Both the position numbers and the translations under genes were made by a program. Source: Planctomycetota bacterium (GTDB taxonomy: Bacteria > Planctomycetota > Phycisphaerae > UBA1845 > UTPLA1). Taken from it: a stretch of 64,000 nucleotides of DNA. The notes below the pieces were generated by a model. It saw only the letters and a list, made by a program, of their open reading frames with translations, had not been told where the DNA came from and made no database searches. This document shows positions 18,350 to 45,704 of the stretch, in pieces; positions within the stretch are counted from its first letter, which is position 1, and each line of letters begins with the position of its first letter. The DNA is taken from the NCBI GenBank assembly GCA_016235815.1, contig JACRIM010000017.1:124001-188000 (forward strand). Direction: 5' to 3'.

Positions 18350-19027
18350 GATGGTGCTCCTTTGGTTGGTGCCGCCGGAGGTGATAATCGGGGGCGGGGG
18401 CGCAGAATGCAAGGGAGGGCGGGAAACGTCGAAAAGTCGAAAAGTCGAAACGCTGGTCGGGGGAATAGGGAACAGGGAACGGGGAACAGGGGGGAGGATG
18501 GGGTCGCTGCGCGAGGTGGGGGTGGTGGTGTAATTGCGGCAAAATGGCGTGGGAAATGAAAAACTGCTGGCGTCTGCTGGCGTTTCCCGGCACGGCAGAT
18601 GCTGAGGGGGCGAGGCACAAAGGGATCGGGGAACAGGGAACAGAGGAGGAGGTGGCTGTTGCGCAGCGATGCATACAAATAATTCTGGGTTGTTACAAAT
18701 AGGATTTGGGTTTTTTGTCCGACTATCGCGATGGGGCGGGCGCGAATGCGGATTGGCGTGGTGCGGGCGCGGATTGTCCGGGGTTCTCTCCATACGTCTA
18801 TCAATCTTGCTCGGTGTTTCACTCGCGGCTGTGAATTGTTGTAGGTATTTGTTAGGTAAGGGGTAGGGGACGGAGACGGGCAAGAAAAGTCGAAACGTCG
18901 AAACGTCGAAACGCCGAAAGCCGAAACGCCGAATGCCGAAACGCCGAATGCCGAAAGCCGAAACGCGAAGCGTCGAAAAGTCGAAATGAGGCTGAGGGGG
19001 CATTCGCAAACTTCCAATTTTGACGGA
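18350..19027. repeat. Repeat-rich intergenic region
   Basis: No gene is supported in this 678-base stretch. It holds GTCGAAAA-type repeats at 18428-18451, GGGAACAG-type repeats at 18460-18493 and again at 18628-18645, and a long run of GTCGAAAC/GCCGAAT-type units of seven to nine bases at 18884-18986. Base composition is strongly strand-biased (G over C on the plus strand). Open frames crossing it arise because the short units seldom make stop codons. Confidence 0.8.
18884..18986. repeat. GTCGAAAC/GCCGAAT short-period tandem repeat
   Basis: About a dozen units of the form (G/A)CGTCGAAA, ACGCCGAAA and TGCCGAA follow one another with a seven- to nine-base period. The unit varies at the third base (T or C) and the last base (A or T). 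A shorter tract of the same kind lies at 18428-18451, just upstream of the superoxide dismutase gene. Confidence 0.85.
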
Positions 19028-19592: not shown

Positions 19593-19616
19593 CACAGGCG
19601 AGGCGCCTGTGCCACA
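19593..19616. repeat. Single 19-base hairpin followed by CCACA
   Basis: CACAGGCG and CGCCTGTG pair perfectly around the loop AGG (19593-19611) and are followed by CCACA. The geometry (8-base arm, 3-base loop, 8-base arm, then CCACA) equals that of the array units at 19971-20331, but the stem sequence is different. Confidence 0.85.
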
Positions 19617-19894: not shown

Positions 19895-20365
19895 GGGTGG
19901 TTCTCTCATGCACTGGCTATTTGTCCACCTTGGTGGATGTTTCACCTGTGCCACACTGGGGGTTCATTCTCACCGGTTGGAAACCGGTGCCACAGCAATA
20001 CACTGGTTGGAAACCAGTGCCACAGATCACCGGTTGGAAACCGGTGCCACAGCAACACACTGGTTGGAAACCAGTGCCACAGATCACCGGTTGGAAACCG
20101 GTGCCACAGCAATACACTGGTTATAAACCAGTGCCACAGACCACTGGTTAGAAACCAGTGCCACAGATCACCGGTTGGAAACCGGTGCCACAGCAACACA
20201 CTGGTTAAAAACCAGTGCCACAGATCACCGGTTGGAAACCGGTGCCACAACAATACACTGATTGGAAACCAGTGCCACAGATCACCGGTTGGAAACCGGT
20301 GCCACAGCAATACACTGGTTAAAAACCAGTGCCACATCAACAAGCCGGTGCCACGGGGCCGAGTT
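19895..20365. other. Intergenic region occupied by the hairpin array
   Basis: No gene. It contains the array at 19971-20331 and two half-units at its edges: a right arm CCTGTGCCACA at 19945-19955 and CCGGTGCCAC at 20344-20353. Several frames are open through the array on both strands because the 57-base period is a multiple of three and contains no stop in those frames. Confidence 0.85.
19971..20331. repeat. Array of thirteen 19-base hairpins, 57-base composite period
   Basis: Thirteen units start at 19971, 20001, 20028, 20058, 20085, 20115, 20142, 20169, 20199, 20226, 20256, 20283 and 20313. Six are CACCGGTTGGAAACCGGTG, all identical. Seven are CACTGGTT..AACCAGTG forms with loops GGA, ATA, AGA or AAA. 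The two forms alternate except for one double T-form (units 6 and 7). The C-form is followed by an 11-base spacer of the type CCACAGCAATA and the T-form by eight bases, CCACAGAT. Base changes between the forms occur in both arms and keep the pairing. Confidence 0.95.
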
Positions 20366-21436
20366 TTACGCGGATTGTACCGGGCGTTGACGATTCGCCG
20401 CGTCGAGCTTGCCGAAGATCATGCGGCCGGCCGACGTTTGCAGGACGCTGGTTACGGCTACCTCCACCACGTCGCCAATTCGCCCGCGGGCCTGATCGAC
20501 CACGACCATCGTGCCGTCGTCGAGGTAGCCGACGCCCTGGCCCGACTCTTCGCCGGGCTTGATGATTTTGACCATCATGCCCTCGCCGGGGAGGACAACG
20601 GGCTTCAACGCGTTGGCGAGGTCGTTGATGTTAATGATGCGGACATTTCGAATCTTGGCGACCTTGTTGAGGTTGTAGTCGTTGGTGACGACGAGGCCGT
20701 TCAGGTGCGTGGCAAGGGTGAGCAGCTTCAGATCGACCGCCTCGGCCGCCTCGGTCTTGCTCATGGTCGGCGTTTCCATGATCTCGATATCGATGTTGGC
20801 GCTGCCCTGCAGCTTGTTGAGGGCGTCAAGGCCGCGGCGACCGCGAGCGCGTTTCAGCTTGTCGGCCGAGTCGGCCACGGCCTGAAGTTCGTTGAGGATG
20901 AACCGGGGGACGATGAGCTTGGAGTCGACGATGCCGGTTTCGCAGATGTCGACGATGCGCCCGTCGATGATGACGGAGGTGTCGAGGATGAAGGGATGCT
21001 GGCCCTTGAGCTGCTTGGAGAATTCAACGTATGGAATGATGAAGCGGATGTCATCCTTGGTCTGGAGGACGAAGCTGACGCAGAAATAACAAACGACGAT
21101 GCCGAAGATCACCTTCGTGATGGCGACGACGGGCTGATCCTGTCCGTTGATTGCGGCGAGGTCCGGGCGATAGGCGGAGATCAGGAGATCGAGCACCATT
21201 GCCACGACGTAAGTAATAAGCAGGCCGCCCGTCAATCCAAAGAAGAGACCCGAGATGGCCTTCAGGGATTTTTGTGCGATGCTGGAGTCGATGACGATGA
21301 CGACCGCGGTCAGCACCACGGCGAGGAGGATGAGTGCCATCCGGTTTTCGGGGAGGACGTTTCCGCGCTCGACATAGGTCATGCAGACGGCGAGCAGGGT
21401 GAGAAACAGAAAAAGGCGGAGAAGCAGGCGCAGCAT
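20366..21436 (-). CDS. PIN-TRAM domain membrane protein, YacL type
   Basis: A 356-residue protein with four N-terminal membrane helices (about residues 5-130), a PIN ribonuclease-like domain ([12 protein letters not shown] near 150, PRFILNELQ near 178, a [12 protein letters not shown] element near 250) and a C-terminal TRAM domain (about 285-345) for RNA binding. The acidic PIN residues Asp, Glu and Asp are present. This is the layout of Bacillus YacL. The PIN domain would face the cytosol; RNA processing or tRNA/rRNA surveillance is an inference. Its stop lies 34 bases from the hairpin array. Confidence 0.9.
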
Positions 21437-45037: not shown

Positions 45038-45598
45038 ATGGCAACGAAATCAAAAACAATCGGCGGCATCTCCGATGAGGCTGTTATCAAGGCGACCGGC
45101 AAGTCGTGGGCGCAGTGGATCGCGCTATTGAACAAGGCCGGATGCAAGACGATGACGCACAAGGAGATCGTGGCGGTCGTCCACACCAAGCACGGTGTCG
45201 GCCCGTGGTGGCAGCAGATGGTGACGGTGGGATATGAGCAGGCGGTGGGGCTGCGCAAGAAACACGAGACGCCCAAGGGGTTCCAGGTCGGCCGGAGCAA
45301 AACAGTGGCGGTGCCGACGGCGACGCTGTTTCGGGCGTGGGCCGATGCGAAGACGCGGGCGACGTGGCTGAAGGCTACGGGCTTCACCATTCGCAAGGCA
45401 ACGCGAAACAAGTCGATTCGCATCAGTTGGAAGGATGGGACGAATGTGGAGATCATGTTCTATTCCAAAGGCGCGGGCAAATGCATGGTGACGGTGCAGC
45501 ACAACAAACTGCGGACGGCGGCGGCCGGCGCGGCGATGAAGCGGTTCTGGGGGGAGCAGTTGGAGCGAATGCAGAGAGTCTTGAGTCTTGAGTCCTGA
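45038..45598 (+). CDS. DUF4287/SRPBCC domain protein
   Basis: A 186-residue cytosolic protein. Residues 1-60 carry the DUF4287 pattern (GISDEAVIKATGKSWAQWIA and HKEIVAVVHTKHGVGPWWQQMVTVGYEQAVG). Residues about 80-180 fit an SRPBCC (START-like) lipid- or ligand-binding domain (VPTATLFRAWADAKTRATWL). No enzymatic role is known. The last codons (RVLSLES) and the stop are made from the CTTGAGTC-type repeat that continues downstream to 45643, so the tail probably reflects repeat growth or insertion. Confidence 0.84.
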   Translation: MATKSKTIGGISDEAVIKATGKSWAQWIALLNKAGCKTMTHKEIVAVVHTKHGVGPWWQQMVTVGYEQAVGLRKKHETPKGFQVGRSKTVAVPTATLFRAWADAKTRATWLKATGFTIRKATRNKSIRISWKDGTNVEIMFYSKGAGKCMVTVQHNKLRTAAAGAAMKRFWGEQLERMQRVLSLES

Positions 45599-45643
45599 GT
45601 CTTGAGGCTTGAGACTTGAGGCTTGAGTCCTGAGGCTTGAGAC
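45576..45643. repeat. CTTGAGTC-type short-period tandem repeat
   Basis: About 68 bases made of nine-base-like units CTTGAGTC, CCTGAGTC, CTTGAGGC and CTTGAGAC in head-to-tail order. The first units encode the C-terminus of the DUF4287 protein. A related tract in inverted orientation lies inside the ABC permease gene at 39141-39170. Confidence 0.9.
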
Positions 45644-45680: not shown

Positions 45681-45704
45681 GGCAGGCAGGGGTGCCTGCC
45701 CCAC
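45681..45704. repeat. GC-rich hairpin GGCAGGCA/TGCCTGCC followed by CCAC
   Basis: Eight-base arms with a GGGG loop (45681-45700), followed by CCAC. The arrangement is similar to the 8-3-8 hairpins followed by CCACA at 19593 and 19971-20331, with a loop one base longer. It lies between two convergent genes and might also serve as a terminator stem, although no T-run follows. Confidence 0.6.

Follow-up and report, generated by a model that had tools for sequence, protein, structure and literature searches.

The window, by which we mean the whole stretch of 64,000 nucleotides that was analyzed, contains an array of short hairpins between two genes that are read in the same direction. The gene upstream in the REP direction codes for a protein with Pfam PIN and TRAM domains and is syntenic in relatives, and the array begins about 30 bp past its stop codon. 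The gene downstream codes for a small conserved protein (MPDFTPHQKK...) that adjoins the PIN/TRAM gene in at least four relatives and had no match in Pfam or NCBIfam. The features of the locus, by position in the window, are as follows.

20366 to 21436, minus strand: PIN/TRAM-domain protein gene
19971 to 20335, minus strand: head-to-tail array of 13 GTGG-tagged REP hairpins, tags included
19971 to 19993, minus strand: REP unit 1, C-form, GTGGCACCGGTTTCCAACCGGTG
20001 to 20023, minus strand: REP unit 2, T-form, GTGGCACTGGTTTCCAACCAGTG
20028 to 20050, minus strand: REP unit 3, C-form
20058 to 20080, minus strand: REP unit 4, T-form
20085 to 20107, minus strand: REP unit 5, C-form
20115 to 20137, minus strand: REP unit 6, T-form, plus-strand loop ATA
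20142 to 20164, minus strand: REP unit 7, T-form, loop AGA, a T-form after a T-form
20169 to 20191, minus strand: REP unit 8, C-form
20199 to 20221, minus strand: REP unit 9, T-form, loop AAA
20226 to 20248, minus strand: REP unit 10, C-form
20256 to 20278, minus strand: REP unit 11, T-form, one stem mismatch (CACTGATT)
20283 to 20305, minus strand: REP unit 12, C-form
20313 to 20335, minus strand: REP unit 13, T-form, loop AAA
19631 to 19918, minus strand: small conserved protein gene
19593 to 19615, minus strand: lone sister-family REP, GTGGCACAGGCGCCTCGCCTGTG, oriented as the array

All thirteen hairpins were found at 19971-20331, where the original prediction had placed them, head to tail and in a single orientation. 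A perfect 8-bp stem with a 3-nt loop was present in 12 of the 13 units, and unit 11 (20256-20274, CACTGATTGG...) carries one stem mismatch, in agreement with the claim that pairing is kept in almost every unit. From low to high coordinate the units run C T C T C T T C T C T C T (CTCTCTTCTCTCT). The predicted alternation of C- and T-forms is thus seen along the array and fails once, at units 6 and 7, which are both T-forms. On the plus strand, a C-form lies 30 bp from the T-form after it, and the step from a T-form to the next unit, whether C or T, is 27 bp, so that, this one break apart, the recurrent spacers of 11 and 8 nt alternate with a composite period of 57 bp, as had been described. Unit by unit, the six C-forms proved identical and the T-form loops variable (in order GGA, GGA, ATA, AGA, AAA, GGA, and AAA). 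Units unlike the commonest form numbered 5 of 7 among the T-forms and 0 of 6 among the C-forms (Fisher one-sided p = 0.016), a suggestive indication only that the T-forms are the more variable.

On the plus strand, CCAC directly follows every unit, which means that each minus-strand unit bears a 5' GTGG tag. The minus-strand layout is GTGG-CACNGGTT-TNN-AACCN'GTG, that is, an unpaired tag and then a hairpin. Tag included, a unit measures 23 nt, and it has the size and palindrome of a GTRG-tagged REP. Perfect palindromes with an 8-bp stem and a 3-nt loop numbered 14 in the whole window, 12 of them within the array, compared with an average of 1.4 in shuffled windows. Against dinucleotide-preserving shuffles, the folding z-scores were -6.4 for RNA of the minus strand and -9.9 for DNA of the plus strand. 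The array has periodicities of 57 bp and 198 bp, and open reading frames cross it on both strands. We find it hardly credible that such an array is an assembly artefact or a CRISPR-like array. The region is repetitive and lies in a draft of 60 contigs; however, units and spacers differ by single bases, the contig runs on into genes whose synteny holds in relatives, and arrays of this kind are found elsewhere in the genome as well as in other assemblies. A CRISPR array was ruled out by the spacers, which are 8 or 11 nt and recurrent rather than unique and of about 25-40 nt.

The unit is widely dispersed in its own genome (labelled G000; a 4.58 Mb draft, 95% complete). Copies with at most 3 mismatches from the 21-nt core numbered 141, spread over many contigs with 72 forward and 69 reverse, and the reversed control gave 0. 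The pattern GTGGCACNGGN7CCNGTG had 107 exact matches (control 0). The original prediction had suggested a search for further copies and had named their absence as evidence against a REP; instead, copies abound in this genome and many more are present in relatives. A loose pattern for all REP types, run per genome, returned background only, with the reversed control higher. Sampled stretches yielded 125 copies, of which 96 carry a GTGG tag and 6 a GTAG tag, and stem position 4 was C-G in 62, A-T in 41, T-A in 9, and G-C in 4. All four base pairs are thus used at this position, and the balanced C/T and G/A change of the array is one case of this. Across 49 distinct copies, 95.2% of stem cells were paired, with two-sided changes at 5 of the 8 pairs. 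The covariation score was 0.224 compared with 0.078 in shuffles, of which 0 of 500 reached it, and sliding of the pairing partner abolished it.

Among the sampled copies, 87 of 90 neighboring pairs were head to tail and 3 were inverted, and 67 of the 87 head-to-tail steps were multiples of three. Homotypic arrays with 27-, 28-, and 30-bp steps occur elsewhere in the genome. The T-form is rare outside the window array, and two other copies of it were seen, on contigs C11 and C27, so the T half need not be mobile by itself. The window array is intergenic, and two other arrays of the same REP family lie inside coding frames:

L013:897-2129 (G000:C23:89928-90310), minus strand: SpoU rRNA methylase with a 13-unit, 30-bp in-frame array, read as DRLETGATRG repeats between two domains
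L147:2313-4016 (G000:C19:14732-14836), minus strand: RtcB RNA ligase that contains an in-frame array of 4 units

In predicted proteins, translated REP hairpins show up as strings such as TGWKPVPQ, GTGFQPV, and HRLETGAT. These in-frame arrays, the open frames through the window array on both strands, its 27/30-bp steps, and the many steps that are multiples of three might indicate that the array is the remnant of an in-frame transposase element or of a formerly translated repeat. However, the arrays share ancestry, so their steps are not independent, and arrays with 28-bp steps exist. Moreover, no transposase or host-gene fragment adjoins the window array, and relatives hold just the two genes at this site. 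We consider such an origin very improbable.

A role as an RNA element was also considered, in which the array would end transcription of the PIN/TRAM gene or protect the 3' end of its mRNA, under selection. Its place about 30 bp past the stop codon and between co-directional genes, its strong fold on both the RNA and the DNA scale, and the preservation of stems through compensating changes would all fit such a role, and transcript-end roles have been proposed for REPs elsewhere (PMC3733652). However, copies of the REP also lie within coding frames and are about equally frequent on the two strands, the units are not followed by a U-run, and recognition by a transposase predicts stem pairing equally well. 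Within the same family, the PIN/TRAM gene and the small gene are adjacent with no REP between them in four or more relatives, and a tagged hairpin downstream of a PIN/TRAM match was present in 0 of 13 other genomes of the family. The array is therefore a lineage-specific arrival, and since relatives keep both genes without it, an RNA role is not required. A known Rfam RNA was ruled out, as no covariance model matched the array at E <= 1, and the earlier suggestion of an independent non-coding RNA gene found no support. Selection on the array as an RNA element thus seems unlikely to us, though less so than a coding remnant. It was also considered that the C/T alternation of stems may keep neighboring hairpins from cross-pairing.

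The original prediction had proposed to look for a REP-associated tyrosine transposase (RAYT), and one was found that is flanked by the same hairpin as the array. Ten matches to the Y1 transposase family were present in the genome. The RAYT at C21:82466 (L039/L041) is bordered by GTGGCACCGGTTTTCAACCGGTG to the left and, in inverted orientation, by GTGGCACCGGTTTCCAACCGGTG to the right, and lies in frame within a housekeeping gene:

L041:511-2904 (G000:C21, about 81.3-83.7 kb): purH with an in-frame RAYT and mirrored REP ends

Two further RAYTs of the genome are flanked by different hairpins, GTGGGGCGGGC on contig C8 (L037) and GTAGGGTCCGC on contig C29 (L040). The predicted fold of the RAYT clade had a pLDDT of 92, with PDB entry 4er8, a RAYT bound to its REP hairpin, as the best match, and the HUH and Tyr motifs are invariant in the sequence set A1. 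With the NCBIfam model REP_Tyr_transpos, the copy of this genome scored 75 bits, below the cut-off of 80, and the homologue L170 scored 89 bits.

Inside each flank of the purH RAYT there is a second hairpin with an A-form stem, 26-27 bp off, so the element ends are head-to-tail pairs of two stem forms (C then A). The element ends at L047, which comes from another family, show this construction too, with a 27-bp step. In the REP direction, the step from C-form to T-form in the window array is also 27 bp, as at the RAYT ends, and the order of the pair agrees as well. The earlier view that the hairpins were amplified as a pair fits this construction. The array is, in our reading, the product of tandem amplification of a two-hairpin REP module belonging to a REP/RAYT system, to which we give a probability of roughly 85%.

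The E. coli RAYT recognizes GTAG together with a hairpin on single strands. By anatomy and by the matching across genomes described below, the RAYT studied here, a single-strand HUH nuclease, would recognize GTGG and the folded hairpin. It may spread single REPs or end pairs by working on single-stranded DNA, and the REPs of the array are apparently mobile. A single C-27-T pair might have arrived in the gap between the PIN/TRAM gene and the small gene next to it. The pair could then have expanded through slippage or unequal exchange, 57 bp at a time, with a larger segmental duplication at least once and a single T-T irregularity; this growth step is suggested by the 57-bp and 198-bp periodicities. 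If the resulting array has any role today, it would be that of hairpins within the 3' portion of the PIN/TRAM transcript. The same periodicities, and the homotypic 27-, 28-, and 30-bp arrays elsewhere, would also be expected of a plain tandem repeat made by replication slippage with no part for a transposase. However, slippage accounts for growth and not for dispersal, and the unit is dispersed with the same tag at about 140 places and around a RAYT. Slippage alone is therefore improbable, although marginally less so than a coding remnant.

Amplification of a REP/RAYT module was further examined by comparing REP and RAYT content across 101 genomes. A RAYT flanked by the CCGGTT hairpin (GTGGCACCGGTT) was present in seven (G000, G019, G070, G079, G087, G098, and G099), and all seven hold 19-147 copies of the REP. 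In genomes without such a RAYT, 8 of 94 have at least 10 copies (Fisher p = 4e-7, in a test that ignores shared ancestry). The match extends to other stems. G090, whose RAYT is flanked by CCGGCT, has 207 CCGGC copies and 2 CCGGTT copies, and G035, with CCGGCG flanks, has 50 and 0, respectively. G044 has a RAYT and only 7 CCGGTT copies. G006, G014, and G046 have 87-111 CCGGTT copies and a purH without RAYT, and no CCGGTT hairpin flanks any of the Y1 transposases found in REP-rich genomes that lack the purH guest. This suggests that REPs outlive their RAYT or use another enzyme. These three genomes hold orphan REP populations.

While the array itself is a clean but explicable head-to-tail REP variant, the main point that deserves attention is the presence of a REP transposase in frame within essential genes. 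In purH, host and guest form a single open frame of 798 codons with no stop. NCBIfam identified purH on both sides of this frame (589 bits, cut-off 402), with REP_Tyr_transpos between the two parts. No second AICARFT/IMPCHase family match was present in the genome, so this purH is the only copy found. Homologous RAYTs are found in relatives at this PurH loop as well, just ahead of KHTNACG. The guest was present in 16 of 90 clear purH genes, as one open frame in 13 genomes (this one included) and at contig ends in 3. Differences per codon position in the purH RAYT were 0.34/0.25/0.60, with 0.68 at four-fold sites and no stops, a pattern indicating selection on the guest as a protein. In AU tests with one tree per side, the PurH tree is rejected by the RAYT data (p = 9e-7), and the RAYT tree by the PurH data. 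The conflict would fit repeated transfer into one site, the RAYT alignment being short. A different Y1 transposase (WLLTWTTYGSWLPGD...) lies in the same PurH loop in three genomes (L077, L086, and L095), which makes this loop a hot spot. Apparent REP remnants were seen in the same loop at L074 and L081, and long in-frame arrays of other REP types occur beside the RAYT in purH at L102 / L069 (purH of G050) and L053 / L178. AlphaFold gave a poor model of the complete PurH-RAYT protein (pLDDT 46, four input sequences), which was not used.

Beyond purH, the RAYT clade was found in frame in ileS (two sites), leuS, rarA, and a DNA methylase gene, the last three hosts being identified by motifs only. 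Pfam showed ValS, Hsp70, Ham1/RdgB, PriA, RecG, AlaS, ThrS, and GcvP split by Y1_Tnp. Of 80 named loci, 39 have the coding frame on both sides of the RAYT and 28 are free-standing RAYTs, acidobacterial members among them. The embedded loci are mostly in Planctomycetota and Verrucomicrobiota, and the RAYT clades are largely specific to the host gene. Most other Y1 transposases of this genome and those of G014 have frames of 144-241 codons and are free-standing. At the level of sequence, the in-frame address of the clade is evident. We see even chances that this clade is a translated in-frame guest of essential genes, that its REP ends double as peptide linkers, and that it passes from lineage to lineage by homing into the same gene site, in which case intergenic arrays would be by-products of the end modules. 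Homing is proposed because the clades are largely host-gene-specific, presence is patchy (as in the purH genes above), and the RAYT tree rejects the PurH tree.

REPs and their single-copy transposases persist over long periods in the absence of ordinary transposition, which calls for an explanation. A RAYT read as a segment of PurH must be translated whenever the host makes PurH, and it could be lost only through an exact or in-frame deletion. If so, residence within an essential protein would be one direct answer to the long-term persistence of REPs and their transposases. The finding also bears on annotation. In many planctomycetes and verrucomicrobia, a nuclease domain is encoded within purH, ileS, valS, alaS, thrS, recG, and priA, and annotation may name such proteins by the host enzyme alone. 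Among open-licence papers, which provide weak evidence on this point, no report of a RAYT with purH or of an in-frame transposase in a planctomycete aminoacyl-tRNA synthetase was found. In such papers we also found no precedent for a transposase inserted in frame together with REPs.

The REPs described here are similar to the GTAG superfamily (PMC3733652), to which the REPs of Rhodopirellula baltica and, with a GTGG tag, GTAG-20 of Opitutus terrae belong. Members likewise have an 8-bp stem, a 3-nt loop, and an unpaired GTRG tag at one end, as well as sub-families with alternative complementary stem bases, some copies in frame within genes, and a RAYT gene flanked by its own REPs. However, head-tail dimers are absent or under-represented in that superfamily (PMC3733652), in contrast to 87 of 90 here, and the composite C/T array of 13 and a cognate RAYT within a host gene are further differences. 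The original description as REP/BIME-like holds for the REP part, by the copies and the RAYT, and fails for the BIME part. BIMEs and REPINs also form clusters from two REP forms, but BIMEs alternate in orientation and REPINs are inverted pairs. With 13 of 13 units pointing the same way and neighbors in the genome almost all head to tail, the array falls outside the strict definition of a BIME, and identity with either was ruled out.

The transposase shares with RAYT / TnpA-REP proteins (PMC2817692, PMC6006769; PDB 4er8) the HUH motif (MPDHVHLL), one catalytic Tyr (YxxxNP), an IS200-like fold, and inverted flanking REPs. Unlike these free-standing proteins, it forms a segment of PurH (in relatives, of IleS, ValS, AlaS, ThrS, RecG, PriA, and others), and its REP ends are translated. 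In-frame REP insertion is known in Rickettsia and Opitutus (PMC3733652). The Rickettsia palindromic elements and intragenic REPs (PMC3733652) are likewise in-frame palindromes, including in DNA repair genes and tRNA synthetases; however, they are repeats only, whereas here a transposase is inserted in frame with them. Inteins are similar in being in-frame guests of conserved essential genes, at the same site across genera, with a guest tree that rejects the host tree. Here there is no sign of protein splicing, and the guest is a Y1 transposase instead of a homing endonuclease. An intein identity of the purH guest was ruled out, as Pfam and NCBIfam returned no splicing domain, just the host domains and Y1_Tnp/REP_Tyr_transpos.

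Other repeats were observed in the window. A degenerate tandem repeat of 8/15 bp (CGAAACGCCG...) lies at 18886-18986, near a superoxide dismutase-like gene. The heptamer GAGTCTT is repeated in tandem at 45576-45641 (9.4 copies), and a lone GTGGGGCAGGC hairpin lies at 45704.
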